Source: Bdellovibrionia bacterium
GTDB taxonomy: Bacteria > Bdellovibrionota > Bdellovibrionia > Bdellovibrionales > UBA1609
Length of the DNA stretch: 43,627 bases
NCBI GenBank assembly: GCA_030432925.1
Contig: JAUILT010000014.1
Location: 1-43,627 of the forward strand
Reading direction: 5' to 3'
Positions 22,477 through 41,884 of this stretch are shown piece by piece. Made by a program: the position numbers and the translations under genes. Within the stretch, counting starts at the first letter, position 1, and each line of letters opens with the position of its first letter. Below the pieces are notes generated by a model. The model was not told the DNA's origin and did not search any database. It saw only the letters and a program-made list of their open reading frames with translations.

Positions 22477-23783
22477 TGGAAAATTTGATCGGAAGCCTAA
22501 ACGGCAAGACAGCGACTATCGGAATTGTGGGTCTGGGCTACGTGGGATTGCCCTTGGCTATTCGCTATGCAGAAGAAAATTTCAAAGTGGTTGGATTTGA
22601 TATCGACCAATCGAAAATTGACAAGCTGGAAGCCAAAAAAAGTTATATCGAGCATATTCCATCTGACGCCATTGAGGAGCTGGTAGATAAAGGCTTCAGT
22701 GCTACAACGGATTTTACAAGAATTACTGATGTTGATGCCATCATTTTGTGTGTACCTACACCATTGAACAAATACAGAGAGCCTGATCTGGGATATGTCC
22801 TGACCACTGTGGAGACCATCACGCCTTATCTTAAAAAAGGCCATGTGGTTTCACTGGAAAGCACCACCTATCCGGGCACCACTGAAGAAGAGTTGATGCC
22901 ACGTCTTGAAAAATCCGGTTTGACAGTGGGAGAGGATATCTCACTGGTGTTTTCCCCTGAACGGGAAGATCCAGGCCGAAAGAGTCACTCCACGCGGACC
23001 ATCCCCAAGGTGGTGGGAGGCCAGACTCCCAAGTGTCTGGAAGTGGGCATGGCCCTTTATAAGGGTGTGATTGACGAGGTGGTTCCTGTTTCCAGTACCA
23101 AGGCTGCCGAGATGACCAAGCTTCTGGAAAACATTCACCGGGCGGTAAATATTGGCCTTGTGAATGAAATCAAAATTGTCTGTGACAAAATGGGCATTGA
23201 TGTCTTTGAAGTGATTGATGCCGCCGCCACCAAGCCATTTGGTTTTGTGCCCTACTATCCGGGGCCCGGAATTGGCGGTCACTGTATTCCCATTGATCCA
23301 TTCTACCTGACATGGAAAGCCCGGGAGTACGGCGTACACACCCGCTTTATTGAACTGGCTGGTGAGATCAACGGCAATATGCCTGCCTATGTGGTGAAGA
23401 AAATCGCCAAGGCCCTGAACCAGGATCAAAAATCCATCAACGGTTCAAAGATTCTGGTTCTTGGGATCTCTTATAAGAAAAATATCGATGATATGAGAGA
23501 GTCTCCATCTGTATTTTTGATGGAGCGTTTGAGAGACGAAGGGGCTGAGGTCAGTTATTCAGACCCTCATGTTCCTGTTTTTCCAAAAATGAGAGAGCAC
23601 AGTTTTGAGTTGTCCAGTGTTGAGCTAACTCCGGACAAATTAAATTCTTTTGATTGTATTGTTCTCGCAACAGATCACGAGAAATTTGATTACGATCTGA
23701 TTCAAAAAAATGCCAAGCGACTTGTGGATACTCGTGGGAAATATCGAAACCATAAAGACGCTCCCAACCTTTCAAGGGCTTAA
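22473..23783 (+). CDS. wbpA: UDP-N-acetyl-D-glucosamine 6-dehydrogenase
   Basis: 436 residues from ATG 22473 with GGAG seven bases upstream, the same length as Pseudomonas WbpA. It oxidises UDP-GlcNAc to UDP-GlcNAcA with two NAD. Seen: the Rossmann motif [19 protein letters not shown], the [17 protein letters not shown] loop, [25 protein letters not shown], the catalytic Cys271 in [16 protein letters not shown], and [16 protein letters not shown] in the C-terminal domain. The SPEREDPG and NIDD features favour the WbpA group over UDP-glucose dehydrogenases. It is followed after three bases by wbpB, which uses its product. Confidence 0.93.
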
Positions 23784-23786
23784 ATC

Positions 23787-24686
23787 ATGGCAAATTTCGC
23801 AATAATTGGAGTGGGGGGATACATTGCCCCCAGACATCTTGAAGCTATCCAGGAAGGTGGCCATAATCTGGTTTTGGCTTATGATAAAAATGACTCTGTG
23901 GGGATCATGGATCGTTTTTTTCCTGACTGCCTGTTTAAAACTGAGTTTGAAGTGTTTCAAAGTGAGGTGGATAAAAGAAGGGGAACTCCTGAGGAGATCG
24001 AATGGGTATCCATTTGTTCTCCCAACTACCTTCATGCCCACCATGCACGATTCACACTGAGAAACGGTATGAATGTGATCTGTGAAAAGCCACTGGTCCT
24101 GACAAGCGCCGAAGCTGAAGAGCTGATGCAGATCGAAAAAGAAACGGGCAAAAATGTTTACACAGTTCTGCAGTTGAGAGTGCATGAATCCATTCTGGCA
24201 TTGAGGCAGAAAGTGGCTGAGGCCAACAGAAATGATCATCAGGTCAGCCTGACCTATATGACGAGCCGGGGTAATTGGTATTTGGAGTCCTGGAAGGGTG
24301 ATGAAAGAAAGTCCGGCGGACTTTCAACAAATATTGGAATTCACTTTTTTGATATGCTGACCTGGATTTTTGGTTCTGCAACAGATGTAAAGGTTCAGGA
24401 AAAGTCTGAGCTTTTGGAAAAGGGCACACTTCAGTTGGAAAAAGCCAAAGTGAATTGGCTATTGACCCTGGATCGCTCTCAATTGCCAAAAGAGGCCGTG
24501 GAATCCGGGAAAACGACCTTCCGCTCCATTAACATTGATGGCGAAGAGTTTGAGTTCAGTTCAGGATTTACGGAACTTCATAAAACGGTGTATCAGGATG
24601 TACTATCTGGCAAAGGTTATGAAATTTCCGATGCTCTGCCGGCCATTAAAATCGCTGAACAGATCAGGAAGGTGTCCCTTGGCTGA
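23787..24686 (+). CDS. wbpB: UDP-GlcNAcA 3-dehydrogenase (Gfo/Idh/MocA family)
   Basis: 299-residue NAD enzyme that oxidises C3 of UDP-GlcNAcA; its 3-keto product is normally aminated by WbpE. The Rossmann start is [21 protein letters not shown] lies at residues 100-102, and the WbpB/WlbA signature [20 protein letters not shown] continues into a [15 protein letters not shown] segment. It is slightly shorter than the usual 315. It overlaps the wbpD gene by eight bases. Known relatives recycle NADH by reducing 2-oxoglutarate to 2-hydroxyglutarate; an lhgO gene for that type of product occurs at 6374, although the stereoisomer made in the cycle may differ. Confidence 0.93.
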
Positions 24687-25269
24687 CTTTTTCAAACATG
24701 AAACTGCAATCATTGATGAAGGTGCTGAGATTGGCAATGGCTCCAGGGTGTGGCATTGGGCTCATGTTTGCGGTGGTGCCAAAATTGGCAGTGGTTGTTC
24801 TCTGGGGCAAAATGTTTTTGTCGGTAACAGAGTGACTATTGGTAATAACGTCAAAATTCAAAACAATGTCTCTGTATATGACAACGTCCACTTGGAAGAC
24901 GATGTTTTTTGTGGTCCCAGTATGGTGTTTACCAATGTGATCAATCCGAGGTCTGCGGTGGAGAGAAAAGACGAGTACCTGGACACTGTGGTCAAAAAAG
25001 GCGCTACTATTGGTGCCAATGCCACCATTATTTGTGGAGCCACGCTGGGTGAAAACTGCTTTATCGCAGCTGGCGCTGTAGTCCGTGGAGACGTCAAACC
25101 CTTTGCCCTGATGGCAGGCGTACCGGCCCGACAGATTGGCTGGATGTCTCGTTTTGGAGAACGTATCGACCTGCCTGTTGAGGGTTCGGGAGAGTGGGTG
25201 TGTCCCAATACCAAGGATACTTATGTGCTCAATGGTAATGGTCTTGAAGTCAGGGAGACGATGGTTTAG
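24679..25269 (+). CDS. wbpD: UDP-2-acetamido-3-amino-glucuronate N-acetyltransferase
   Basis: 196-residue left-handed beta-helix acetyltransferase that adds an acetyl group to the 3-amino sugar made by WbpE. Hexapeptide repeats are obvious ([34 protein letters not shown]). [17 protein letters not shown] and the [15 protein letters not shown] end are typical of WbpD/WlbB. I chose TTG at 24679 because [13 protein letters not shown] begins there, with AAGG seven bases upstream; an in-frame ATG at 24535 would lie deep inside wbpB. The stop is followed directly by the GTG of the next membrane gene, sharing one base. Confidence 0.92.
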
Positions 25270-26756
25270 TGGTTCCGAAACTCATACTTGTTCTGACTTT
25301 TATAGTAATCCCAGTTTTAACTTTTTTTTGCGTTCGTAGCTTGAGTACTTCTTTGAGTAAGAAACATTCAGTGTTTCTTTCATTTATATTGGCGGGAATC
25401 TCACCTCTGCTAACTTCCAGACTTTTTACTTTAATGTTATGGTTTTTTCCCGAAAGAGAAAAGATTTCGTATTTCATAGTATTTGTTATTATTCAGCTGG
25501 CTCCAATTGCAGCAACTTTAATCTATAAAGTTTTGATTAGAAATTCATATGATCTTTTAGAAGACATCATTGATTTGAATGCTTTCTTTTCAAATGGATA
25601 CAGAAGTTCAGAAAAATGGTTGGTAAATTTTGCCCTTATCTTTTTAATTGGGATAGTAAGTGTAGGAACCTTTCAGACAATAATGATGCCTCCTACAGGG
25701 AATGACACACTGGAATATCTGCAGTCAGCGAGGTTTTTACTTGAAAAGAGAAATCTCGAATATTACCCAGTGAGGGATGCAGAAGAATCTGGCGGATTTT
25801 ATGGTCCCTGGACTCACCCTCCAGGCTATGTAGGGTTGATTGCATGGACAGGATTTTACACTTCGGGGAAGCTCGATTTCAATGGTTTCAAGCTAGTCAG
25901 TATATTTTTTACCATTAGTCTGCTTCTGGGAGTTGCCCTTTTCAGCATTTGTATGCTTGAACTTAGCCTTTTTCCCTCGATACTAGCCTCTTCTGTTCTG
26001 ATTGCTACACCGGTATTTTATTATCAGTTTGCTATTTCGCACATTGACTCTATCAGAATTTTTGCTGATTTTGCTACGTTATCAGTTGTTTTGTTTTTAA
26101 TTAGAAGTCCTCGACCTATTTTTGCTGTTTTGCTGGGGATTGTCGCAGGAGGCACTCTTTACAGCCATTCTCTGGGGGTGTTGCTGGGAATGCCAATAGC
26201 CCTATCCGTTTTATTTTTGGCGAAATATTCTATAAAAACAAAAGTTAAGCTTTTATTTACAGCAGGGCTGATTAGTCTGCTCTTTGTATCCCTAGACCTT
26301 TATAAGAATATATTGTCTTCGGGCAATATTATCAGTGATCTGAACCAGATCAGTGTGGCAAATATTCCTCATATAAAATTTTTCGAAACCCTCTCAATTG
26401 AGCGGGGATTCTTTACAACAACAGATAGTATTTTCTATGGGGTTTTCAGGGGGTTTTCTGACCGTTTTTCTTTTGGGGCTTCTTACTGGTTCGCTTTACT
26501 TGGGTTTTTGTTTTTTCTGTCGTCCTTTCGCAGAGAGAAGCAAAGACAGAATTTCGTAATTGAGTATTCTGCAATGGGGGTTTTTGTTTTGAGCTTTTAT
26601 CTGTTGGTTATTCTCTCTCTGGCGTTGGGATCCCAAGAGCTGGTGAAAAACCCCAGGTATTTTCTTTCTATTCAGCCTATTATCGCATGTTTTGGAGGAT
26701 ATGGTCTTTCGGTTTTTCTGAATAAGATGTGGGGAGCTTTTTATGCGAAGGCTTAA
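25269..26756 (+). CDS. GT-C-like membrane glycosyltransferase, membrane part of a split protein
   Basis: 495 residues, about twelve membrane helices. The first large periplasmic loop begins PPTGNDTLEYLQSARFLLE, with an acidic Asp where GT-C enzymes (ArnT, PMT, GT39-like) place their catalytic residue, then YPV, GPWTHPPGYVGLI. This matches the QNDALQYATMARIF region of the one-piece protein at 30300-32534. It would use a polyprenyl-phosphate sugar in the periplasm. It starts GTG at 25269, sharing a base with the wbpD stop, and ends one helix early compared with its relative. The missing helix begins the next gene, which overlaps by 14 bases in another frame. Confidence 0.75.
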   Translation: MVPKLILVLTFIVIPVLTFFCVRSLSTSLSKKHSVFLSFILAGISPLLTSRLFTLMLWFFPEREKISYFIVFVIIQLAPIAATLIYKVLIRNSYDLLEDIIDLNAFFSNGYRSSEKWLVNFALIFLIGIVSVGTFQTIMMPPTGNDTLEYLQSARFLLEKRNLEYYPVRDAEESGGFYGPWTHPPGYVGLIAWTGFYTSGKLDFNGFKLVSIFFTISLLLGVALFSICMLELSLFPSILASSVLIATPVFYYQFAISHIDSIRIFADFATLSVVLFLIRSPRPIFAVLLGIVAGGTLYSHSLGVLLGMPIALSVLFLAKYSIKTKVKLLFTAGLISLLFVSLDLYKNILSSGNIISDLNQISVANIPHIKFFETLSIERGFFTTTDSIFYGVFRGFSDRFSFGASYWFALLGFLFFLSSFRREKQRQNFVIEYSAMGVFVLSFYLLVILSLALGSQELVKNPRYFLSIQPIIACFGGYGLSVFLNKMWGAFYAKA

Positions 26757-28366: not shown

Positions 28367-30316
28367 TTAATTATTACTTTTGTAAACCGAAAAGTAATAA
28401 TTTGAAAAGACAAGATCCAAAGATTTAATTACTTCAGGTATTCTGGAATTATCGACGATGAAATAATCTATGCCCTCATCTTCCACTAAATGCCATACCT
28501 GTTCTTGTGATAAGTTCAAATATTTATCAGCAAAATCCATTTCAATGATACTCAAGTGACTTTTTTCATACGCAAATTTTGGAGGATAGTCTTTCAGGTC
28601 AAATCCAAAAAGTAATGCCCGCCTGGAGCCTTCGGTGTGTAATTTAGAGGTTGGCAAGTAGCAAAAGGAATCATGAAGCCATCCCCAAAAGTTCCCAAAG
28701 TTTTTTCTCTTAGTTTGGAATCTCCAGGAATAGTTAGCAACGGGATCTATCAAAAACATGGAGTCAGCAGGGGTCTCTTTTTTTGACCAGTTTTGTATGG
28801 AGGCAAAATCCCTCGCCTTTGCAATATGTTCAGAGTTTTTCAGGTAAGGCTGACTGAGTGGATAGGAAAATAAAACCAAGGCCAACAAAGCCATATAAGA
28901 GGCCTTTTTGAGTCGCACCAAATATGAAAAACTAAGAGCAAGTACTATGACCAGCATAAATACCCAAATCCATCTCTGTTCAAATCCAATCGGCTTCCAG
29001 GCTCCCCCCATAATTCCTAGGTTTAGTCGTTCTGTATCAAACTCAGCAAGTGGCTCCCAGATACCGGATAAATGCTTTACAAAAATGATCGAGGCAACTG
29101 AGAGTCCAATGACGATTCCGGAGTAAACTTTTGTGATCCGACTAGACGAGGTAATTAAAACCAGGAGTCCAATTAAGATAAATGGAAAACCAGGCCGTGT
29201 GGTCGTCATCAAAATAAAAGTCGTAAGAGCCAGAGGTGTTGAAAATAATGTGGGAGAGTCGACTTGCTGGGAGATTATTTTTCCGATAAGGATAATAAAA
29301 ACCAAAGAGACAATAGTTTGAGATCTCATGGGTGACAACAGAATTACTGATTTAATTGGAACAATTTCAATAAAAATATATCCGAAAATTGAAATCCCTA
29401 GAACTGTAAAGAGTCCTGATATGAGAAATAACCTTTTCCATCGTTTTGGTGGTTCTGTGTAAACTATTAAAAGTGAAAAAATGAATCCCGCCAATAGAGG
29501 CATAAAAATATCATAGGCTTCTGAGGTAAAGAGGCTCAAAGCCGAAGGAAACCAATGGTAATTTAGAAGCCTTACCTGATTAAGCCAGATTTCATCTGGT
29601 ACCATCTGCACTTGCAGGCCGGCTGGTGAAAGAACAGTTGTGTAAACTATCAATACTGAAAAAAGAAAAAGAAGGAATGAGATGATGTTTGATCTCTGTT
29701 TAACTTCTCCAGAGAAAACAAAAGAGAATGCGCAAAAACAAGAGTAAAAAAATGCAATAGAAGGGTGGCATAAAAAAGAGAGAAAAATTGTCAAAAATGC
29801 CACAGGAAAATTTCTTTGATAGGCATAGGAAAGCCCCAAAATGCCCAAGCCATGTGCCCAGCCGTATGAGTAAGGGCTTATGAACCGGGCATATCCTTCC
29901 AGTCCATGTCCGTATCGTGCAAGATTTAAGTTGGAGACTTTCGAGAGCAAGCCGAGGATTACGCTCGTATAGGCGGCCAGTTCGGATTTTGTAATCAAGA
30001 ATGAAAGGCGATAGATGGAGAAAGCCAAAAGCAATGTTACCAGAAACCCGAAAATATAGTCAGTTTGGATGGGGGTAATTCCAATAGAATCCAATAGTTT
30101 GTAAGACCTCATTGTCAATGAACGATCATATAGAGGGAGGACTTGCATGCCCCAGTCATCCTGATAATGAGAATGGGATTTTGAGGCCTCTACGTAGTTG
30201 GCAGGGTGAAATTTGTCAAACACCCTTTGATTTTCAAAATCAATGGCTTTAAAGGTAAAAAGCGCACAAGAAATCACTGCTAAAATGGATACAATGTTTT
30301 TATTCCATATTTTCAC
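28367..30316 (-). CDS. Polytopic membrane protein, GT-C-like
   Basis: 649 residues: about twelve membrane helices, then a periplasmic C-terminal part (about 520-649). The first external loop contains SHSHYQDDWGMQVLPLYDRS, with an acidic Asp-Asp pair where GT-C enzymes have their catalytic site. Later motifs include LCHPSIAFFYSCF. The C-terminal part has DEGIDYFIVDNSRIPEVI, similar in pattern to the LGITHFFIPPYALPF and LEIDRLYLPNYAKP segments of the two other large proteins here, suggesting a shared periplasmic domain. Its ATG lies inside the end of the upstream gene (17-base overlap). Function as a periplasmic glycosyltransferase is likely but not certain. Confidence 0.68.
   Translation of the reverse strand: MKIWNKNIVSILAVISCALFTFKAIDFENQRVFDKFHPANYVEASKSHSHYQDDWGMQVLPLYDRSLTMRSYKLLDSIGITPIQTDYIFGFLVTLLLAFSIYRLSFLITKSELAAYTSVILGLLSKVSNLNLARYGHGLEGYARFISPYSYGWAHGLGILGLSYAYQRNFPVAFLTIFLSFLCHPSIAFFYSCFCAFSFVFSGEVKQRSNIISFLLFLFSVLIVYTTVLSPAGLQVQMVPDEIWLNQVRLLNYHWFPSALSLFTSEAYDIFMPLLAGFIFSLLIVYTEPPKRWKRLFLISGLFTVLGISIFGYIFIEIVPIKSVILLSPMRSQTIVSLVFIILIGKIISQQVDSPTLFSTPLALTTFILMTTTRPGFPFILIGLLVLITSSSRITKVYSGIVIGLSVASIIFVKHLSGIWEPLAEFDTERLNLGIMGGAWKPIGFEQRWIWVFMLVIVLALSFSYLVRLKKASYMALLALVLFSYPLSQPYLKNSEHIAKARDFASIQNWSKKETPADSMFLIDPVANYSWRFQTKRKNFGNFWGWLHDSFCYLPTSKLHTEGSRRALLFGFDLKDYPPKFAYEKSHLSIIEMDFADKYLNLSQEQVWHLVEDEGIDYFIVDNSRIPEVIKSLDLVFSNYYFSVYKSNN
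28369..28402. terminator. AT-rich 13-bp hairpin between convergent operons, possible bidirectional terminator
   Basis: Bases 28369-28381 pair perfectly with 28390-28402 around an eight-base loop. It lies past the stop of the plus-strand gene (28323) and covers the last codons of the minus-strand gene ending at 28367. The stem is nearly all A and T and the following T tracts are short, so strength is doubtful. Confidence 0.4.
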
Positions 30317-32534
30317 GTATCAACTCATAGAATTCTATGTTGCTTAACTCAAAATAATCGCCGGAAATCAAGCGGGCTCCCGCGCCTATAAAGCAAGATT
30401 TTTCAGGTATTAAAGTTTGGATAAAAATTGCTTTTTTGTCAGCTTGAACCTCCTCGGACCAGACCTTTCTAAATTCATTGCCTCCCTGAGAATTCAGGGG
30501 TCTTGTAATGAGAAATATTTCGTAAAACCCACTTCCTTTGGTGTTCCCGGAAATTATAACCGGATTGTCGCTGGTTGTTATCCGACAAACTACTTCGGAA
30601 GAACAGGTGTCTGAAAAGTCGCAAACAATATTGCCCCTGGATAAAATCGACTGAGAGCGATCCTCTCTTTCAATTCTTTGTGAAGTGAACTCATTGAGCT
30701 CCAGGTCGAATATGGAAAACAGACTGTTTTGAAAAACCAAGTTTGAAAAACGGGGATTGAAGAGCAAGTTTCTGATAGAGGTGTTGTAAATGGTCGGCTT
30801 TGCGTAGTTGGGAAGGTATAATCTGTCAATTTCCAGATCCTTTAAATCATTAAAGGCACTCTCGGGGTCTTTATTTTCGTACGCTGGAATAAGTCTGGGA
30901 TCATAGTCTCTGATAAACAGATTTCTAGAGTAGTAAGGAAATTCCGCCATTCGAAAAATCAGGTAAGTTTGGCTTCCTTTTTTGATAAAATCAAAGTGAT
31001 TAAAATACTCGAGTTTATTGATGGCCCTATACTCATCTCCATGAAAAGCCAAGTCCTCGGAAGTCAATTTTTTGATGGTCAAGTTAATATCATCTCTGAT
31101 GTTGTGTGAAAAAGGTGACAGCCCTGACAGCAGGAAAATTGTGATAACAGTTGCAATCGATCCATTTTTAGTGTTTCCAAATATTTTACTTGCGGTGATT
31201 ACAAGTACTAAGCAGGCAAATGGAGCGATGGTTGAAACGTATCTGATTCCATCAGTTAAATCTGGCATTCCAGTAAAGTTGGAGTAAAAGAGTAGGGCGA
31301 AGAAAAACAAAATGAACAAACAGGGCGTCAGCAGAACCTTCTCACGGTATTTTTTTAATAGAACAACTAAAAGTCCAGAAACAGCAGCGCCTAAGTAAAT
31401 GAATCCAAAGTTATCAAGCTGCGTAAAAATCTTAAGGCTCGAAAGAAGTCTGGAAGTCAAATCAGTTTGTTCGGATGCTCTGAGTACAAAATCTTTCCAT
31501 CCAACAAGTGGGTGAGACCACATCTCCAGATTATCGCTGATGGGTGATCCGAAATGTTGAAAATTGATGATGTAGTGAAATCCCCAAAGTAATAATGGGG
31601 GAAAGAGTGAGAGAAAAGGGAATGCCAGGCTTTTGTTCCCTTTAATCAGCGCCTGTGCCGCGCCGTAAAAGGCATAGAATGGGATTAATATTATTCCCAG
31701 ATTGTGTGAGTAAATGGCTGGAAACAAGCTCCAAAAAATCATCTTGTAAGTTGCATTAACTTTTGAGTATGTGAAATACAGGGAGAATACTGCCGCCATT
31801 ACGCCATAAATCCTCAACGAATCGATCGAAAAGGAGAGTGCCATTTGATAGGTTGCGGGGATAGAGAGCAAGAGAATGCATGTGAGCAGGGCTATTCTCA
31901 AACGTTTGTATCCTAAAAATCCAATTATCGCCAAACACTGAAAAATTAAATAAAGAGGGTGAATAATTCTTCCTGCCCCAAAGGAGTCTGAGTGACCTTG
32001 TATCAAATAAGTGAAAAAAATTAACATGTGGTTCGCAAGAGGGTGACATGTTCCTGCCATGAATCCAGTACTATGAGCTTTAATAAATGGATAGTTTGTC
32101 AGATTCAATTCGCTAAAAAATATTCTTGCCATTGTTGCGTACTGAAGGGCGTCGTTTTGTGTTAGTGGGAGCAAAAGTGACTGCCAGAAATAAAGCAGCA
32201 AAAAGACAAAAAGAAACACAAACAAACCCATGTCCAGGAGGTGAGCCTGATAAGCTCTGTATTTGAATTGGTGAAATAGTTTTTTGATTGGGGATATAGA
32301 AAAGAATGTAGTTAAAATAAGTGCTGCAAAAAGAGACGCCGTATAAAAAATTAGGGGTTGCTCGGGTAATAACCTAAGAAGTACTTCAAGAAAATATGCG
32401 AGAAGAATTGGTCCGCACCCAAGAAAAACAAAAAACAGTTTGAGGCGGAGCTTTTGTGGGAAAGAGGTGGACAGCAATGCTGAGCAGGAGATCGCAGCCC
32501 ATGAGAGGATAAGAAAAGTAACAAAAGGAATCAC
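30300..32534 (-). CDS. GT-C-like membrane glycosyltransferase with periplasmic domain (one-piece version)
   Basis: 744 residues. About twelve helices with the first loop PLTQNDALQYATMARIFFSE (acidic Asp at the expected catalytic place) and GTCHPLANHMLIF. This is followed by a periplasmic alpha/beta domain (about 500-610) and a C-terminal beta domain (about 630-740) that is Cys-containing. Overall it has the same layout as the two overlapping genes at 25269-28323, without their extra beta modules. It is second in a minus-strand operon: the ATP-grasp gene ends nine bases before it and the next GT-C-like gene overlaps it by 17 bases. The sugar transferred is unknown. Confidence 0.72.
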   Translation of the reverse strand: MIPFVTFLILSWAAISCSALLSTSFPQKLRLKLFFVFLGCGPILLAYFLEVLLRLLPEQPLIFYTASLFAALILTTFFSISPIKKLFHQFKYRAYQAHLLDMGLFVFLFVFLLLYFWQSLLLPLTQNDALQYATMARIFFSELNLTNYPFIKAHSTGFMAGTCHPLANHMLIFFTYLIQGHSDSFGAGRIIHPLYLIFQCLAIIGFLGYKRLRIALLTCILLLSIPATYQMALSFSIDSLRIYGVMAAVFSLYFTYSKVNATYKMIFWSLFPAIYSHNLGIILIPFYAFYGAAQALIKGNKSLAFPFLSLFPPLLLWGFHYIINFQHFGSPISDNLEMWSHPLVGWKDFVLRASEQTDLTSRLLSSLKIFTQLDNFGFIYLGAAVSGLLVVLLKKYREKVLLTPCLFILFFFALLFYSNFTGMPDLTDGIRYVSTIAPFACLVLVITASKIFGNTKNGSIATVITIFLLSGLSPFSHNIRDDINLTIKKLTSEDLAFHGDEYRAINKLEYFNHFDFIKKGSQTYLIFRMAEFPYYSRNLFIRDYDPRLIPAYENKDPESAFNDLKDLEIDRLYLPNYAKPTIYNTSIRNLLFNPRFSNLVFQNSLFSIFDLELNEFTSQRIEREDRSQSILSRGNIVCDFSDTCSSEVVCRITTSDNPVIISGNTKGSGFYEIFLITRPLNSQGGNEFRKVWSEEVQADKKAIFIQTLIPEKSCFIGAGARLISGDYFELSNIEFYELIRENME

Positions 32535-32543
32535 ACTTATAGC

Positions 32544-33722
32544 CTACCACTTGGGGCTTTCTCGATCCAAGACAATGCCTATATTATGAAGTAAATCTTT
32601 TATCTTTAGATTGTTCAAGCATTTTTCTGCTCCATTATTACTCAGAACCTTTTTTACCCTTCTCCATAATACGCCGACTGTCCGGGGTTTTTGGATCAGA
32701 TGAAAAATGATTTCAGGGAAATACCACTTGTAGAGAAGATTCTCCCTGTAGTCCAGATATGAGGCTGGTTCTTTCTGGTGATAAAAAATGTCAATGATTT
32801 GTTCAACAATATTTGAGCCGGCAGATATTGTAAGTTGAGTTGTTCCCCATATTTTGGGGTTGATTTCCAAAAGGTACAGTTTGCCCTCTGATGTTTTCAG
32901 AAAGTCGAATAAGCAAGCGCCATTCCAATCTAGTAATTTTAGAATCTTGGAGGCTACCTCCTTCATTTGTTTGTCATCTGTGGTTCTGTTAATAATTCCC
33001 CCGCCACCAAAATCAAATAGCGCAAGATGTCTCTGCTGTGTGAGCAAAGAATAAGGTTTACCCTGGAAGGAGCATGACGTGACATCGTGAAGATCTCCAT
33101 TCACTTTTTCTTGTAGTACATAAGAGCTGAATCTAGAGTTTTGTCGGAAAAACTGATCTTCTAAAAAATCAAGATAATCATCTTTTGTATCAAAAAACAT
33201 GACACCAATGGATGCTGAGGAGTTACAGGGTTTGAGTACTGCCGGGAACGGGACCTGGGTGGCAGCATCTTTGGCGGAGCTATTGTCATGAACATGTGCT
33301 GTTATGGGAAAGGGAACCCCCTTTGATTTGAGCAGGTCATAACTCTTCCATTTATCTGTTAACGGTTCCAGCTTGTCAAAGTTTTCAGCAGCAACTTTGG
33401 CCTTTGAGGCTCTTTCAATCTGTTGTTTGTATTTTGAAGCCAGGTTTGTCAAATCAGTGCCAACAGGAATAATAAGGTCGATGTTGAGATTATTACTTAG
33501 ATTTATAATGGCCTTGCAGCATTCTTTTGGATATTTCGTGGCATTGGGGTACCTGTAAATACTCTCGAGCTTTCTGGATTTGAAAACCTTTTCAGGGTTG
33601 TAGTTAAAGAAAAAGAAGTGGTCGACTTGGGCTGTGGCGCCAAAGACAGTGAAATTACTGCCAAGTGAATTAATTACGGCAAGGGCATTACGACTATAGC
33701 AATTCAATAAGAGGATGTTCAT
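32544..33722 (-). CDS. ATP-grasp family ligase of unknown substrate
   Basis: 392 residues from ATG 33722, where conserved sequence begins (MNILLLNCYSRNALAVI); an upstream extension to 33836 is open but unlike the family. The N-terminal pre-ATP-grasp domain is followed by the ATP-grasp fold: PAVLKPCNSSASIGV with the ATP-binding Lys, YVLQEKVNG, and LLEINPKIWGTTQ holding the Mg-binding Glu-x-Asn. It resembles carbamoyl-phosphate-synthase-like or PylC-like ATP-grasp proteins, which join a carboxylate to an amine through an acyl phosphate. It heads a minus-strand operon with two GT-C-like genes and is divergent from comB. A role in amide-linking a carboxylic acid to an amino sugar fits this context but is inference. 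Confidence 0.8.
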   Translation of the reverse strand: MNILLLNCYSRNALAVINSLGSNFTVFGATAQVDHFFFFNYNPEKVFKSRKLESIYRYPNATKYPKECCKAIINLSNNLNIDLIIPVGTDLTNLASKYKQQIERASKAKVAAENFDKLEPLTDKWKSYDLLKSKGVPFPITAHVHDNSSAKDAATQVPFPAVLKPCNSSASIGVMFFDTKDDYLDFLEDQFFRQNSRFSSYVLQEKVNGDLHDVTSCSFQGKPYSLLTQQRHLALFDFGGGGIINRTTDDKQMKEVASKILKLLDWNGACLFDFLKTSEGKLYLLEINPKIWGTTQLTISAGSNIVEQIIDIFYHQKEPASYLDYRENLLYKWYFPEIIFHLIQKPRTVGVLWRRVKKVLSNNGAEKCLNNLKIKDLLHNIGIVLDRESPKW

Positions 33723-33905
33723 CAGCTCGTTTTTTCCAGACGAAGACCGTTTTTGGACCAACGATTGAAGATCACGGAAATCTCTTTGATTTTCAAGTAA
33801 CTGTTGCCACTTAGCGCTAGGCAACGCTGCGCGCAATATGGGTGGTAAGTTGAGCTGGGAAAGGGCCTTTCTTTACTTATTTCAAGGATTTTTGTAAACA
33901 CAGGA
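33723..33905. other. Intergenic region between the ATP-grasp and comB operons
   Basis: 183 bases that must hold the divergent promoters. GTTGCC at 33803-33808 pairs with GGCAAC at 33820-33825, and the loop itself contains the palindrome TAGCGCTA (33812-33819), so a nested dyad is present. I found no promoter with good -35 and -10 boxes. Confidence 0.35.
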
Positions 33906-34595
33906 ATGGCTTTGAATGTTCGAATTTTTGATGGAAATCATCATGATCCCCCCGGTGATGTCGTCGTAATTATAGACGTACTCAGAGCATTCTCCACCAC
34001 ACATTTCCTGTTCCTAAAGGGATTTGAGTCCATAAGACTGGTTGGAACCGTTGAGGAAGCATTTTTGTTGAAAGAGCAGTTTCCCAAGTCTTATCTTGTG
34101 GGAGAAATAAATGGTTACAAAATAGACGGGTTTGATCTGGGGAATTCTCCTGAGGAAGTTGAAAACAACCATCTTGATCCGTCTTATTTGGTATTCATGA
34201 AAACGACAAATGGGGTCAAGTCGGCACTGACGGCCAAAACATCAGATTATTCACTGGCAACCGGACTATTGGGGGCCAAGGTCACTGTTGAGTATATCAA
34301 AACTTTGCTGCCGGGAAGGGGCGTTGTAAATTTGATAGCGACAAATCCTCAATCTGATGAGGATCGTGCGTGTGCAGAATTTATGAAAGATTCGCTTTTG
34401 GGATTAAGTACCAGTGAGGACTTGACCATCAACAGAGTTAGGGGAAGCTTTGGTGCGAAGAAGTTTTTGGATAACAGTATGCCTGAGTTCAAACAAGTGG
34501 ATCTGGATTTATGTGCTGGATTTGGAGCGCCGGCTTTTGTTATGAAATTGGAAAACAAAGATGAAAAGACTTTTCTGAAAAAGGTAGATACATGA
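33906..34595 (+). CDS. comB: 2-phosphosulfolactate phosphatase
   Basis: 229-residue Mg-dependent acid phosphatase that hydrolyses 2-phosphosulfolactate to 3-sulfolactate. Family marks: VVIIDVLRAFSTTHFL (residues 19-34), VGEINGYKIDGFDLGNSP near 70 (usual GE..G....GFDLGNSP) and MKTTNGVKSA (usual TTNGT). Length is right for ComB. ATG 33906 has AGGA directly before it with no spacing; TTG 33912, which gives MNVRIFDG, has better spacing and may be the real start. It overlaps comA by four bases (ATGA). Placing ComB within a glycan locus is unusual: it normally belongs to coenzyme M synthesis in archaea or to sulfolactate formation in spores and other bacteria. Confidence 0.9.
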   Translation: MALNVRIFDGNHHDPPGDVVVIIDVLRAFSTTHFLFLKGFESIRLVGTVEEAFLLKEQFPKSYLVGEINGYKIDGFDLGNSPEEVENNHLDPSYLVFMKTTNGVKSALTAKTSDYSLATGLLGAKVTVEYIKTLLPGRGVVNLIATNPQSDEDRACAEFMKDSLLGLSTSEDLTINRVRGSFGAKKFLDNSMPEFKQVDLDLCAGFGAPAFVMKLENKDEKTFLKKVDT

Positions 34596-35368
34596 TTGAA
34601 ACAGATTTCATAAAGCTTCCAAATCGGGCGTCAAAACCAAGAACCTTCGGTTTGAACTTTCTTCTCGACAATGGGCTTCCCACTCAAAAATTCATTGATG
34701 TTATTGAGAGCCATAGTGAGCTGATAGACTCCGTTAAGTTTGGTTGGGGAACGGCTCTTGTAACAAAGGACTTAATGACAAAAGTGAGCTGTCTTAGAAA
34801 GAATGGTATAGGTTATCAGTTGGGTGGAACTCTTTTTGAAAAGGCAGTAATACAGGGAAAAGTCGGAGAGTTTGTCAGTTTTTGCAAAAAAATTGAGGTA
34901 CCGTATGTAGAAGTCTCTGATGGGACCATCGAAATGCCAATTCAAGATCGGCGCAATTATATCAAGGAACTTTCAAAAGAATTTAAAGTGCTGACTGAGG
35001 TGGGCTACAAGGATGTTGAACGGTCCAAGCTACTGAGTCCTTCAAGTTGGATTGACCTGATGAAATCAGATTTTGAATCCGGCGCCGTTTATGTGATCAC
35101 GGAGTCGAGGGAGAGTGGAACCAGCGGTATTTGCAGGGAAAATGGAGAGCTTCGCTTTGGGTTGATTGAGGAGATTCGAGCATCAGGTCTGGATTTGAAC
35201 AAGATTGTATTTGAGGCTCCGAACAAGTCATTGCAGACATATTTCATCAAGAAAATGGGAGCTAACGTAAACCTTGGAAACATTTCATTTAACGATGTCG
35301 TCGCGTTGGAAACTCTGCGTTTGGGGTTGAGATCGGATACGCTATATTTTTTTGAGGAGGAGGGGTAA
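34592..35368 (+). CDS. comA: Phosphosulfolactate synthase
   Basis: 258-residue TIM-barrel enzyme that adds sulfite to phosphoenolpyruvate to give 2-phosphosulfolactate. Seen: SVKFGWGTALV near 47-57, YVEVSDGTIEMP near 107, a TEVGYKD strand, ITESRESGTSGIC near 171-183, and the C-terminal block APNKSLQTYFIK, VNLGNI and LETLRLGLRSDT. Hsa32-like heat-tolerance proteins of plants share this fold, but the directly linked comB argues for the synthase. It is translationally coupled to comB, and the next gene starts right after its stop. No comC, comD or comE is present, so the pathway would stop at sulfolactate and not go on to coenzyme M. Confidence 0.92.
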   Translation: MIETDFIKLPNRASKPRTFGLNFLLDNGLPTQKFIDVIESHSELIDSVKFGWGTALVTKDLMTKVSCLRKNGIGYQLGGTLFEKAVIQGKVGEFVSFCKKIEVPYVEVSDGTIEMPIQDRRNYIKELSKEFKVLTEVGYKDVERSKLLSPSSWIDLMKSDFESGAVYVITESRESGTSGICRENGELRFGLIEEIRASGLDLNKIVFEAPNKSLQTYFIKKMGANVNLGNISFNDVVALETLRLGLRSDTLYFFEEEG

Positions 35369-35767
35369 ATGAGAGATCCCAAAAACGTTTTCCATCTTGC
35401 GATACCTTCCCATGACCTAGGGATGGCAAAAGAGTTCTATGAGTTATTGGGGTGCGAAGTTGCAAGAACCTACGAAGACAGAATTACATTGAACTTTTTT
35501 GGAGACCAGGTTGTTTGTCACTTTGATGAGGGATATGAACCTCCAGAGCCTAAAATGTACCCTAGGCATTTCGGAGTCACTTTCGTCGAAGAGGCGGAGT
35601 TTCAGGATGTGTATAAGAGATCCAAAGGTGCTCAGCTCAAGTTCTTCAAAGACGTCTTTTTTCGATTTCAGGGTAAACGTGAAGAACACAAGACATTTTT
35701 TTTAGAAGACCCTTCCGGCAACTTGCTGGAGTTCAAATGGTATAAAGATCCTGAGATGATTTACTAG
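35369..35767 (+). CDS. VOC (glyoxalase/dioxygenase-fold) family protein
   Basis: 132 residues with two beta-alpha-beta-beta-beta units. VFHLAIPSHDLGMAKEFYEL gives the first metal-ligand His (about residue 8), HFGVTFVEE a second (near 67) and FFLEDPSGNLLEFKWY the last Glu. These are the positions used by metal-dependent VOC enzymes such as glyoxalase I and fosfomycin-resistance proteins. The substrate is unknown. Its ATG follows the comA stop with no gap and has GGAGGAGGGG upstream, so it belongs to the comBA operon and may act on sulfolactate or a related intermediate. Confidence 0.85.
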   Translation: MRDPKNVFHLAIPSHDLGMAKEFYELLGCEVARTYEDRITLNFFGDQVVCHFDEGYEPPEPKMYPRHFGVTFVEEAEFQDVYKRSKGAQLKFFKDVFFRFQGKREEHKTFFLEDPSGNLLEFKWYKDPEMIY

Positions 35768-35931
35768 TTTCAAGGCCGGGGCAGGGCAGGATTGCCCCAA
35801 TATATAACGCTACGGGCTATACTCTGGATTTGGCATTCATCCAAATGCATGATTTGGTTTGCGAGGCCGACCATGGTAATAATGAACACTGATTTTTGAT
35901 TTGTCACCTGCCTGAGGGAGAAGTTGATTCC
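35768..35931 (+). promoter_or_regulatory. Intergenic hairpins between the comBA operon and the glycan genes
   Basis: GGGGCA at 35778-35783 pairs with TGCCCC at 35793-35798, eleven bases after the VOC gene stop. No T tract follows, so it is at best a weak terminator. Nearby, ATTTGG and CCAAAT around 35828-35846 make a second small dyad. No clear promoter hexamers were found. Confidence 0.3.
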
Positions 35932-36978
35932 ATGGACCTGTCATTGGTCATTCCTTGTTATAATGAAGGGGATCACCTGGAGGATAGAGCTGAAACTATC
36001 ATTTCCTACATGGCCAGCACCCACCCTCATTTGGTCTATGAGGTTATTTTTGTTAATGATGGCTCTACAGATTCCACTCAAAAAGTTATAGAGAGCCTGC
36101 AGTCAAAATATTCCTTTGTTAGAAATGTATCTTACTTCCCCAATCAGGGGCGGGGATTTGCCCTGTCTTCAGGTTTTAAGGCCACCAGTGGTAAAAAAGT
36201 GATAAGTCTCGATGCGGACCTTTCCTATGATGTCGGCCATATTACAGATGTTTTGAAGGAGTTTGAAGCTGATGAAAAAGTTGAGGTGGTTGTAGTTAGC
36301 GCTTATATGAGAGGTGGATACTCAAAAAATGTCCCATTAAAGAGGTTACTGCTCTCTCGTTTTGCCAATTGGATTCTTTCTGGTTTTTTCTACGGTCGTA
36401 TTTCAACAGTGACATGTATGGTGCGTGGGTACGACGGGGAGTTGGTTCGGCGATTCACTTTTGTTGAAAAGGGTAAGGAAATTCATCTGGAAATCCTTAG
36501 GAAGCTGGCCCTGCTGAATGCAAATATTAAAGAAATTCCAGGTCGGTTGGTTTGGAAAAAGGCTGATAAACCGGTGGCTCGTAGAAAAACCAACCTTATT
36601 TTTTCCAGGGCCATCAAAAATCACCTTTTATATGGTTTGATGATTCGTCCAAATAGATTTCTTAAATGGTCGGCCCTGATAATTTTGGCAATTGGTATTT
36701 GGGAGTCATTTAATGTTTTGGGGTCTATCTTTCGATTTTATCGAGTGACTGATAAAGGTTTTTCAGCAGACATATGGATGGCCTTGAATTCAGCTTTAGA
36801 GTACTCACCACATACATTTATTATTGCCGGAGTATCCACAATTGTTGGGTTTCAGATCTTTTTCTTCGTTGTGATGATACAGGTCAATAAATTGCAGCAG
36901 GAAGAGCTGTTAAAGCATATTTTGGCTTTGCAAAACAGTCTGGATGCGATCCCAAAAATGAAAACAAGCGACAGGTAG
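35932..36978 (+). CDS. Family 2 glycosyltransferase, polyprenyl-phosphate sugar synthase-like
   Basis: 348 residues from ATG 35932 (GGAG eleven bases upstream; TTG 35896 is possible but less likely). GT-A fold with LSLVIPCYNEGDHLE, VNDGSTDST, the nucleotide-binding LDADLSYD and a CMVRGYD acceptor loop. Two C-terminal membrane helices follow (about 250-270, 300-325). This is the layout of GtrB/DPM1-like enzymes that put hexose on undecaprenyl phosphate. It would supply lipid-linked sugar to the GT-C-like proteins encoded nearby, a link inferred from family behaviour. It is first of a run of plus-strand genes with short gaps or overlaps. Confidence 0.87.
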   Translation: MDLSLVIPCYNEGDHLEDRAETIISYMASTHPHLVYEVIFVNDGSTDSTQKVIESLQSKYSFVRNVSYFPNQGRGFALSSGFKATSGKKVISLDADLSYDVGHITDVLKEFEADEKVEVVVVSAYMRGGYSKNVPLKRLLLSRFANWILSGFFYGRISTVTCMVRGYDGELVRRFTFVEKGKEIHLEILRKLALLNANIKEIPGRLVWKKADKPVARRKTNLIFSRAIKNHLLYGLMIRPNRFLKWSALIILAIGIWESFNVLGSIFRFYRVTDKGFSADIWMALNSALEYSPHTFIIAGVSTIVGFQIFFFVVMIQVNKLQQEELLKHILALQNSLDAIPKMKTSDR

Positions 36979-38119: not shown

Positions 38120-40024
38120 ATGTGTGGAATAGCCGGTTTTTTTTCTGAAAGTGACTTTGGTAGCGACTTTGTGCGAGTGCTGGAACCAATGCTGACTAGT
38201 ATTGAGCACCGGGGCCCTGATCATCAGGGTGTTTTTCAGCAGGACAATATAGCGATGGGTAACCAGCGCTTGAAGGTCATTGACCTTGAGGGCGGAAACC
38301 AACCCATGCACAGTTACTGTGGAAGGTATGTGTGTGTATATAATGGAGAGATCTATAATTACAGAAAACTAAGAAAGTTATTGATCTCCAGGGGTGCTAC
38401 TTTCAAAACCAAATCTGATACCGAGGTTTTTATTAACGGTTTTTCAGCTTTTGGTCTTGATTTTTTTCCAATGCTCGATGGGATGTTTGCGGCATGTATT
38501 TACGACAAAACCTCCAAAGAGGTATTTTTGGTTCGGGACAGATTGGGGATTAAACCACTCTACTATTCTGAGGTGGAAGATTCGATTGTCTTTGCGAGTG
38601 AAATAAAATCCATATTGAAGTATTCTGATACTTTTGATGATCTTGATTTTAAAGCTCTTTCCATGTACCTGCATCAGGGCTTTATACCACAACCGTGGAC
38701 TGCATTTTCAAAAATAAAAAGACTCCCAGCTGGGCACTATTTGCATTTTGATGGGTCCCTGAATCTCATGGAGTATTTTGAGCTCGATTTCACCAGGAAA
38801 GAGGATATCAGCAAGAATGAAGCCAGTGAGGAGTTGGAAGGCTGTGTCTCTAAAGCTGTAAAATATCAGGTTCACTCAGACGTGCCTGTGGGTGTGTTTC
38901 TGAGTGGAGGTTATGACTCGAGTCTTGTTCTGTCAATGTTGCATAAGAATGGTGTGAGGCCAAAAACATACACCTTGGCTTTCGGCGATCCTGAATATGA
39001 TGAGTCAGGTGTTGCTGAGGGGCTTGCAAATTTTTTGAATTTTTCCAGTGAAGTGGTGAGGATGGACGAGGATCAGCTGATCCGGTGCTTTTCTGAGCGT
39101 TCAGAGCATTATGCCGAGCCATTGTACCCTTGGATTAATAGTGGCAGGTCATTCTTGGCGGAGCATGTGCGAAATGATGGCGTTAACGTAGTACTCAATG
39201 GAGCTGGTGGAGATGAGCTTTTTTGTGGATATCAAACATTAAATGCATTGAAGCTTTCGGGAATGATTCGACCTTTTGTAAAAAAACCTTCGAACTCCAT
39301 TCTCTCAGGGATAGTCAATCGCTTGCCTGCTGGAGAAGGGGTATTGCCTTTCAGCTATAAGGCGAAGGCATTTTTAAATGCCATTGATAGTGACCCACTG
39401 CGAACTTTCTTTAATTTTAAGAATCCACTTGTCGGAGTCGACCTAAAGATGATCTTCTCTGAAGACTTTGTTGCCAAATTAGCCGAGCATGACCCGTTTG
39501 AGATGTTTTCCCAGTATCACGGAAGAATTTCTGATTGGAACATTATTGATCAGGCGCAATATCTTGATATGAAGTGTTTCCTAGAGGGGGCCATTTTGTG
39601 TCTTGGAGATAACGCGACGATGGCAAAATCCGTTGAAGAAAGGGTTCCGCTTTTGGGAAATGAAGTCGTGGATTTTGCTTTGAAGCTGCCATTAAAGACA
39701 AAGTTCGAAATGGGCTCAGTCAAGCCTATCGTGAAAAGTTCGGTACAGAATTATTTGGCCAGAAATGGATCTCACGCCTTGGCGAAGGGTTTTTCCAAAA
39801 GAGGTTTTGACCTTCCCGGTAACAAGTGGATGAAGAGTGGAAGCTGGGGAGAGTACATTGGCGATCACGTGCTGGGAGAAGATCGCCTGATAAATATGGG
39901 AATTTTTAAACCAGCAGGTGTCAGGGACATAGTTTTAAGACACAAAAGAGGGGAAACTAATTTTGAACGAGCTATCCAGGTGATAACAGGTTTTGTGGAG
40001 TTTTTTGATCGTTATGGAAAATAA
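38120..40024 (+). CDS. AsnB-like glutamine-dependent amidotransferase
   Basis: 634 residues. The N-terminal glutaminase uses Cys2 (MCGIAGFFS), with RGPDHQG, NGEIYNYR and SDTEVFINGF, and releases ammonia from glutamine. The C-terminal synthetase part binds ATP through FLSGGYDSSLV (about residue 260), with GAGGDELFCGY downstream. The P-loop normally reads SGGLDSS; Tyr for Leu is unusual. Such proteins are common in surface glycan loci, where they are thought to amidate sugar carboxylates, for example on uronic acids, and not to make free asparagine. Uronate sugars from the WbpA/B/D route would be plausible targets. Its end overlaps the next gene by eleven bases. Confidence 0.9.
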   Translation: MCGIAGFFSESDFGSDFVRVLEPMLTSIEHRGPDHQGVFQQDNIAMGNQRLKVIDLEGGNQPMHSYCGRYVCVYNGEIYNYRKLRKLLISRGATFKTKSDTEVFINGFSAFGLDFFPMLDGMFAACIYDKTSKEVFLVRDRLGIKPLYYSEVEDSIVFASEIKSILKYSDTFDDLDFKALSMYLHQGFIPQPWTAFSKIKRLPAGHYLHFDGSLNLMEYFELDFTRKEDISKNEASEELEGCVSKAVKYQVHSDVPVGVFLSGGYDSSLVLSMLHKNGVRPKTYTLAFGDPEYDESGVAEGLANFLNFSSEVVRMDEDQLIRCFSERSEHYAEPLYPWINSGRSFLAEHVRNDGVNVVLNGAGGDELFCGYQTLNALKLSGMIRPFVKKPSNSILSGIVNRLPAGEGVLPFSYKAKAFLNAIDSDPLRTFFNFKNPLVGVDLKMIFSEDFVAKLAEHDPFEMFSQYHGRISDWNIIDQAQYLDMKCFLEGAILCLGDNATMAKSVEERVPLLGNEVVDFALKLPLKTKFEMGSVKPIVKSSVQNYLARNGSHALAKGFSKRGFDLPGNKWMKSGSWGEYIGDHVLGEDRLINMGIFKPAGVRDIVLRHKRGETNFERAIQVITGFVEFFDRYGK

Positions 40025-40949
40025 GACTTTTACCTTTGCTAATACACTCAAGCTTGGATTGTATCTGGCAGTTCTGGTCGGCCTTGTTTTCTATTTTAGT
40101 AGTCATTGGGGGGAAATCACCAGAGGAAGCTTTAAGATATCCAGTCTGGCTGTGGGAGTACTTTTTGCTGGTTTGGTGATGATGATTCGTGGATTGATTC
40201 TCAAAAATTTCATTTTTATTTTTAATGGTAAAACTTCTACTGGGAAGTGTGTTGAAATCTGTGCCTCTGCGACGATAGTTAATCTGGTTCTCCACTTGGG
40301 CATAGGTTCAGCGATGATGGTTGTTTTTATTAGAAATGCAACGGGGAAAAGGTTTGTGGAAGCAGGGTCTGTTCAGTTAGCATCACTGATATACCATATA
40401 TTTGCAGATGCATTTTTAGGACTACTTGTCCTCATGATTTTCTATCCAGAATACGGACTCCTGAGTTTGTTTTTTTTGTCGATATTGTTGGGAATAATCT
40501 TGTCAGGAATGCTGGTAAGTTTGGCACACAATAGAAATATAAAAGTAGGGTTTGAGTTTTTGGACAATATAGTAGCGACTCTGTCTCAGTGTTACCGAAT
40601 GGAGTTTTTCCGGAGAATTTTACCTTTATGTTTTATTGAAACCCTGTGCCTTGTTGGGTGTGTTTTTTTCGCCTTTCAGGCTATTGGAGTTGATGTTGAA
40701 TCTGTTGCCTCTGCTTTATATGCAAGTATAAGAAACCTCTCTATATTATTGGCTATAACTCCTGGAGCCTTGGGGATTTCTGAAGCGGTCATGGGTCTGT
40801 CGGCACAGTTATTTTCTGTTTCAGAGGTACAGTCGGTGACGACGTCCATGTTTATCAGGGTTTTTATTCTTTTCTCATGCCTGTTCGTTGTTAGCGGCTT
40901 CAAATTTTGCCGCATTATTGGGCAGCGAAATCCTGATGGGGGTGATTGA
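40014..40949 (+). CDS. Flippase-like membrane protein (LPG synthase TM region/UPF0104 type)
   Basis: 311 residues with about eight membrane helices. The C-terminal motif TPGALGISEAVMG is the PGG-x-G-x-x-E signature of the lysylphosphatidylglycerol synthase TM region superfamily, whose members move lipids or lipid-linked sugars. I chose ATG 40014 (GGAG thirteen bases upstream, a long spacing); GTG 39993 is the alternative. It lacks the cytosolic aminoacyl-transferase domain of MprF. In this operon a job in flipping a lipid-linked sugar or precursor is plausible. The stop TGA overlaps the ATG of the next gene. Confidence 0.75.
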   Translation: MENKTFTFANTLKLGLYLAVLVGLVFYFSSHWGEITRGSFKISSLAVGVLFAGLVMMIRGLILKNFIFIFNGKTSTGKCVEICASATIVNLVLHLGIGSAMMVVFIRNATGKRFVEAGSVQLASLIYHIFADAFLGLLVLMIFYPEYGLLSLFFLSILLGIILSGMLVSLAHNRNIKVGFEFLDNIVATLSQCYRMEFFRRILPLCFIETLCLVGCVFFAFQAIGVDVESVASALYASIRNLSILLAITPGALGISEAVMGLSAQLFSVSEVQSVTTSMFIRVFILFSCLFVVSGFKFCRIIGQRNPDGGD

Positions 40950-41884
40950 TGTATACTACCTTCGAGGCTACTTCATTTTTTCGGGAAATCATGGGATCTG
41001 AGTTTTGGGTGAATGAAGAAATATATAGTGATAAACGCCTGGAATTGATTTTTTTCAAACACAAGCTATCTAAAACCCTGGTTTCCACGCCCTATAGAGA
41101 TCGCGCCGCAATCAAGTTTCATGAGAACAATGCTTCAATTGATGATTGCTTCGAAGGCGTCAAAGATTTTTTAAAAGGCAAGTCAGCGATATTCAAGGAT
41201 TTGTCCGTATTTTCCTCTCTTTCAATTGATGTGTCAAAGTATTGTAATGGAAGTTATTCCATGGTGAATTCTGATGTGGCACTAGATTCGAAGTTGGAGT
41301 CACGCCTTCACAAGTCTGCTGTAAAGGCAAACAGAAGGGCAAAAGAGGTTTTTAATCTCAGTTTCAAGGTTGATTCGTGGGATATTGACAGGTTTTATGA
41401 GCTGTATCTGGAATCACGACTTCGACTGGGTGTTTTGCCGTATGCAAAGTCCCTTTTTAGAAAGTTCGCACAGGGAATTGGAAAAAAAACAGTTGTATTC
41501 AGTGCGGAAGATGAGAGTGGACCAATTGGATATCTTATCTGCTATTTGCATGGTGATGAGATGATCTCTGGTCATCTGGCCTACGATTATTCTAAAAGAC
41601 TCAAGCGTGTTACAGATTTTTTGTTTTTACAGGCATTTATTTGGGGCAGAAACAATGGTTTCGTCAATTATCGGTTTGGCTCAGACCATCGAAGCCAAGA
41701 GGGACTAATTACGTTCAAAGAGAGATTGGGTGCCGTTGTCAGGCCCCAATATGATCTTCTATTTGGCGTTGAGGAAACGCACGATGGTGCTCAGAATAAC
41801 AGGTTTGTTACCAGTTTAATAAAACATGTTCCAATGCGGCTTTTCCGGCATTCATTTTTGGGCACTAAAATTTATTTTTCGTAG
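40949..41884 (+). CDS. FemAB/GNAT-fold acyl- or aminoacyltransferase-like protein
   Basis: 311 residues from ATG 40949, which shares a base with the upstream stop; a run of G lies upstream as ribosome site. Two halves of GNAT-like fold are seen. The second has VKANRRAKE and FYELYLESRLRLGVLPYAK, VVFSAEDESGPIGYLICYL, and LFLQAFIWGRNNGFVNYRFG, the pattern of Acetyltransf_6/FemAB-like proteins of exopolysaccharide loci. Known FemAB enzymes add amino acids from tRNA to peptidoglycan precursors; relatives in glycan clusters are of unknown substrate. It might attach an acyl or aminoacyl group to the polymer. Confidence 0.75.
   Translation: MYTTFEATSFFREIMGSEFWVNEEIYSDKRLELIFFKHKLSKTLVSTPYRDRAAIKFHENNASIDDCFEGVKDFLKGKSAIFKDLSVFSSLSIDVSKYCNGSYSMVNSDVALDSKLESRLHKSAVKANRRAKEVFNLSFKVDSWDIDRFYELYLESRLRLGVLPYAKSLFRKFAQGIGKKTVVFSAEDESGPIGYLICYLHGDEMISGHLAYDYSKRLKRVTDFLFLQAFIWGRNNGFVNYRFGSDHRSQEGLITFKERLGAVVRPQYDLLFGVEETHDGAQNNRFVTSLIKHVPMRLFRHSFLGTKIYFS

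Follow-up and report, generated by a model that had tools for sequence, protein, structure and literature searches.

The best-studied acylations of the bacterial envelope attach acetyl or D-alanyl groups, and the Dlt pathway (DltA-DltC-DltB-DltD) D-alanylates teichoic acid. ComA and ComB, in turn, are the first two enzymes of the archaeal coenzyme M pathway. MBOAT plus SGNH and AT3-SGNH form the two major systems of polymer acylation in bacteria (PMC12148441). In B. subtilis, sulfolactate is a major component of spores (~5% of their dry weight), and its synthesis is attributed by inference to yitCD (PMC517825). A ComA/ComB pair without ComC-E is therefore not new; an earlier sequence-only reading of the present DNA was aware of no described system of its kind, but for the enzyme pair yitCD is a precedent (PMC517825). 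YitC and YitD, like the proteins described here, form a ComB-ComA pair without ComC-E, and the two ComAs fall in the same supported clade. Unlike them, YitC and YitD are encoded by sporulation genes outside any glycan locus, PMC517825 mentions no VOC partner, and B. subtilis is further set apart by the yitBA-yisZ operon, which is also assigned to phosphosulfolactate synthesis.

In this study, we analyzed a stretch of 43,627 nucleotides (the window), which is contig C124 (JAUILT010000014.1) of a Bdellovibrionia genome of 3.04 Mb and 96% completeness (GCA_030432925.1, here G000). Positions 33906-35767 of its + strand contain a comB gene (33906-34595; 229 aa, 2-phosphosulfolactate phosphatase family), a comA gene (34592-35368; 258 aa, (R)-phosphosulfolactate synthase of the YitD-type clade), and a VOC gene (35369-35767; 132 aa, FosA/glyoxalase fold, ComA-linked subfamily). 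The comB and comA genes overlap by ATGA, and the VOC ATG follows directly after the comA TAA with GAGGAGG just upstream, which bears out the translational coupling first read from the open reading frames. Promoter and terminator scans gave results near chance level.

The ComA protein, the only one of G000, scores 271 bits against PF02679 (curated cut-off 25.2), and its nearest solved structure is that of B. subtilis YitD (1u83, E=2e-79), followed by M. jannaschii ComA. An alignment of 16 ComA proteins, two of them of solved structure, has 44 invariant positions, and the window ComA keeps all of them. In a tree of 43 rows, a single supported clade (98/99) unites the ComAs of the window and of a second Bdellovibrionota genome (G141) with YitD, with those ComAs of Actinobacteriota that are linked to VOC, and with two paralogues lacking a VOC. 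Judged by its sequence, ComA is intact, with the sulfolactate-type YitD as its closest relative. The archaeal ComAs lie apart from this clade, and the score of 227.5 bits against the archaeal ComA equivalog model TIGR03849 stays below the 280-bit threshold; on both grounds, we rejected an archaeal-type coenzyme M enzyme as the identity of ComA. It is very improbable that the module leads to coenzyme M or a similar thiol cofactor through further genes located in other parts of the genome. Such a role would fit the place of ComA and ComB in archaea, and comA of a Nocardioides plasmid does belong to a gene set that also holds lyase-family and PAPS-reductase genes, but comAB of the window is flanked by glycan genes, and no ComC/ComDE or bacterial coenzyme M genes were recognised beside it within the window.

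ComB belongs to its family by PF04029 (104 bits, cut-off 26.4, E=7e-30) and has 2z0j, 1vr0, and 2yyv as PDB relatives; the family identities first proposed for ComA and ComB thus agree with Pfam. With only 62.7 bits against the ComB equivalog TIGR00298 (threshold 175), it is a divergent member with putative phosphatase activity. D24, R27, S81, N102, G103, and D151 are invariant in a four-sequence alignment, and the motifs common to the solved relatives are present.

The third protein is a VOC superfamily member (PF00903, 38 bits, cut-off 20.6) which matches 3rri at E=3e-43, an Alicyclobacillus VOC of unassigned function whose structure has been public since 2011. Foldseek with a structure model (pLDDT 92, built from eight sequences) returned 3rri at TM 0.94, then VOCs of Salmonella and Vibrio, and FosA, FosX, and FosB at about 0.7. 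Although the fold is common to all of these, the Fos enzymes are 15-28% identical to the window VOC and differ in their conserved residue set and gene partners. H9, H67, and E121 are invariant in eight aligned sequences and are likely metal ligands. FosA enzymes bind a C3 phosphonate, and a C3 sulfonate would therefore be a plausible ligand of this VOC. Our survey of the subfamily covered two phyla, Bdellovibrionota and Actinobacteriota, with Alicyclobacillus represented by 3rri alone.

Genes for ATP-grasp, GT2, VimE-like deacetylase, AsnB-type, LPG_synthase_TM, and FemAB-like proteins flank the module. On the + strand upstream are genes for a WbpA-type UDP-sugar dehydrogenase (22419-23783, with the true start inside the ORF), a WbpB-type Gfo/Idh oxidoreductase (23787-24686), a WbpD-type acetyltransferase (24670-25269, start estimated from alignment), and a large GT-C-like membrane protein (25269-26756). 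A second large membrane protein of this kind (30300-32534) and an ATP-grasp carboxylate ligase (32544-33722, PF02655, 52 bits) are encoded on the - strand; the ligase gene is divergent from comB, its ORF being open to 33836 with a likely start at 33722. A GT2 glycosyltransferase gene (35896-36978, +; PF00535, 80 bits) follows the module. The ATP-grasp, GT2, AsnB-type, and FemAB-like genes of the original description are all present, whereas its GT-C label is tentative. The first membrane protein has a weak PMT_2 match and 28% identity to positions 4535-5581 of the G141 locus treated below (L011; E=1e-27); the second has no Pfam match and is 23% identical over 641 aa (E=2e-25) to an L011 homologue near comAB-VOC. 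Two further observations concern the same contig: the AsnB-type (38120-40024) and FemAB-like (40946-41884) proteins match XrtA/PEP-CTERM exopolysaccharide models below the cut-offs, and positions 16152-19688 encode a predicted lipoprotein-like protein of 1178 aa with RCC1-like repeats, recognised by eye, at its C-terminus.

A 3,566-base low-coverage contig (L002, JAUICD010000087.1) in G220, a metagenome-assembled genome of a different family, is 100% identical to window positions 31647-35212. Since the window is nearer in tetranucleotide make-up to other contigs of G000 than to those of G220, and the G220 copy is such a short, low-coverage piece, we rejected an assembly or binning artefact for the window; the G220 contig is probably a cross-binned stray. 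Apart from this identical copy, the ATP-grasp ligase has no further relative at E<=1e-20 in 369 Bdellovibrionota genomes, for which reason it was rejected as a conserved partner of comAB-VOC; in the PDB it finds weak D-Ala-D-Ala ligase matches only.

ComA scored above cut-off in four of these 369 genomes: G000, G220 (the stray contig), G355, and G141. The ComA of G355 is divergent and has neither ComB nor VOC beside it. G141, a complete genome from another family of the same order, carries a comAB-VOC locus (L011) in which the following genes lie in order on a single strand: WbpA-like, WecB/WbpI-like (assigned by eye), WbpB-like, WbpD-like, AMP-ligase, comB, comA, VOC, ACP, SGNH-like, and MBOAT. 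The ligase, ACP, and MBOAT are Pfam calls, while the SGNH-like protein was assigned from motifs only (Pfam none); catalytic motifs found in the locus are TSGSTGKPKG, DSL, GLWHG (MBOAT), and GASS...DLLH (SGNH-like). The WbpA, WbpB, and WbpD proteins are 73%, 65%, and 71% identical between the two loci, which also have a GT-C-like homologue in common. Linkage to a glycan locus, which the sequence-only reading had named as a point to check in related genomes, therefore recurs in a second family of the phylum, and because it recurs far beyond the window's own genome, it is more than chance.

The L011 block resembles the Dlt pathway in combining an adenylating ligase, a carrier protein, an MBOAT, and an SGNH-like protein. 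The nearest relatives of its ligase are OSB-CoA ligase and 4CL, DltA ranking lower. The block differs from the Dlt pathway in that the acid would come from ComA, ComB, and VOC rather than being D-Ala and in that the setting is a Gram-negative glycan locus, and the window has none of the transfer parts. This arrangement bears on whether ComA and ComB simply make free sulfolactate, a soluble cell component or osmolyte of the kind present in B. subtilis spores, with the position in a glycan locus being incidental. YitD in the same ComA clade, the abundance of sulfolactate in spores with yitCD as its inferred maker (PMC517825), and the absence of MBOAT and AT3 transfer genes from G000 would all suit that explanation, but we consider it unlikely, given that the glycan linkage recurs in G141 with homologous WbpA, WbpB, and WbpD and that the trio is embedded there between acid-activation and transfer genes, as it is in the actinobacterial cassettes.

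Among 396 Actinobacteriota genomes, 38 have ComA, and we inspected the neighbourhoods of 37 ComA places, where a simple rule of codon composition served to call the neighbouring ORFs of high-GC loci. VOC abuts comA at six of them, and an AMP-ligase and an AT3 protein (PF01757, detected by tblastn) are present in all six. These cassettes span 3.4-4.2 kb in three arrangements and have diverged considerably (ligase 38-63%, AT3 28-59% identity). A single VOC profile run over all 396 genomes picked out the same six at 229-236 bits, the next best reaching 86, a gap which is partly by construction as the profile was built from linked members. In one cassette (L003), the nearest relatives of the ligase are oxalate-CoA and malonyl-CoA ligases, whose substrates are small dianionic acids. 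PF01507 proteins (PAPS reductase family) are present in all six genomes. ComB is absent from five of the six and elsewhere in the genome in the other; His_Phos_1 genes adjoin the cassette beside AT3 in L059 and L066 by Pfam, a histidine-phosphatase gene is apparent by eye in L003, and one might guess that such phosphatases stand in for ComB. AT3 (Acyl_transf_3) also characterises envelope O-acyltransferases such as OatA and OafA, but Pfam scans of three cassettes show no fused SGNH domain, and the cassettes, unlike OatA/OafA-type systems, have a dedicated ligase and ComA for acid supply.

Other ComA genes were seen in different company. A second ComA copy in the genome G559 (L080:6073-8388) has no VOC and lies beside an MBL-fold protein which resembles a persulfide dioxygenase by eye and is a possible sulfite source. 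In G448 (L052:7932-9955), a ComA of another clade has as close neighbours a gene which by eye looks like ATP sulfurylase and an FAD-dependent oxidoreductase-like gene, the latter also seen in L047. On a Legionella lytica plasmid (NZ_CP071528.1, L101:5850-9478), ComA follows an AMP-binding domain and ACP within one fusion protein of 970 aa, which also has a DIP2-like AMP domain, with ComB after it and an aminotransferase class I/II gene before it; the pathway may lead to a sulfonated lipid or amino acid.

Taken together, we put at about 0.5 the probability that comB-comA-VOC supplies a small sulfonated hydroxy-acid for attachment to a glycan of the cell envelope. Its relatives speak for this reading, as they pair comA-VOC with genes for acid activation and for membrane acyltransferases, the parts required for an envelope substituent. 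The glycan substituent suggested at the outset is partly supported, gaining from the intact YitD-like ComA, the glycan linkage in G141, and the acyl-transfer company but losing from several absences. G000, searched as a 96% complete genome, has no MBOAT and no AT3 (PF01757), the latter also being absent from G141; its AMP-ligase matches are only 23-30% identical, and there is no convincing short ORF for an ACP in the window. Dlt-like transfer genes elsewhere in G000 were searched for and rejected on these grounds, so that by gene content G000 falls outside both MBOAT-SGNH (Dlt-like) and AT3 acylation. No PAPS reductase scored above cut-off in G000 or G141, ComB is missing from most cassette genomes, and we found no report of sulfolactate on glycans in the open-licence papers searched, where absence is weak evidence.

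Some of these points would suit a different attached acid, in that the VOC may turn (phospho)sulfolactate into some other C3 compound, or ComAs of this clade may use a different nucleophile. In the actinobacterial cassettes, the VOC is always found with comA, its likely metal-ligand residues are conserved, and both the absence of a PAPS reductase above cut-off and the frequent absence of ComB would then be easier to accommodate. Moreover, in the Bdellovibrionota genome G273 (L148:6221-12240), which has no ComA, a VOC gene lies beside AMP-ligase and MBOAT genes, with ACP and SGNH-like genes ~2 kb off, and the VOC therefore may not act on a sulfonate. This VOC is close to the ComA-linked subfamily, and its proper partners may be the acyl-transfer genes and not ComA; more distant relatives are standalone, and we rejected the idea that the VOC is strictly bound to ComA everywhere. 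Nevertheless, ComA keeps every position conserved in sulfite-using enzymes and both loci in Bdellovibrionota retain ComB, and a different acid seems to us a minority prospect.

For the sulfonated substituent, we propose that ComA would condense phosphoenolpyruvate and sulfite to (R)-2-phospho-3-sulfolactate, from which ComB would remove the phosphate, and that the VOC, probably metal-dependent with its FosA-like fold, would tailor the C3 acid, free or activated. In the relatives, an adenylate-forming ligase would activate the acid, which would be carried on ACP or CoA, and a membrane acyltransferase (MBOAT plus SGNH, or AT3) would esterify an outer polymer with it. Since these transfer genes are absent in the window's organism, another enzyme would join the acid there; the divergent ATP-grasp ligase, perhaps linking the acid to an amino sugar as an amide, is our guess. 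The supply step by ComA and ComB is well supported at the sequence level, and the recurrent gene company speaks for delivery to the envelope, whereas we infer the product identity, the VOC chemistry, the acceptor, and the joining enzyme. The occurrence of MBOAT and AT3 types with the module in different phyla argues for one acid supply serving two kinds of transferase. With somewhat less confidence than an even bet, we suggest that a recurrent system in Bdellovibrionota and Actinobacteriota, composed of ComA(-ComB)-VOC, an adenylate-forming ligase, and MBOAT-SGNH or AT3 (with a different ligase in the window), adds sulfolactate, or a derivative of it made by the VOC, to envelope polymers as an acyl group.

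In summary, what is new here is the company of comA-VOC, namely acid-activating ligase and membrane acyltransferase genes in distant relatives, and this gene set makes the idea of a sulfonated acyl group directly testable by mass spectrometry. If true, it would place a permanent sulfonate charge on the cell surface and represent a new way to set surface charge, extend the role of bacterial ComA beyond coenzyme M and spores, and give a function to the orphan VOC subfamily represented by the structure 3rri.
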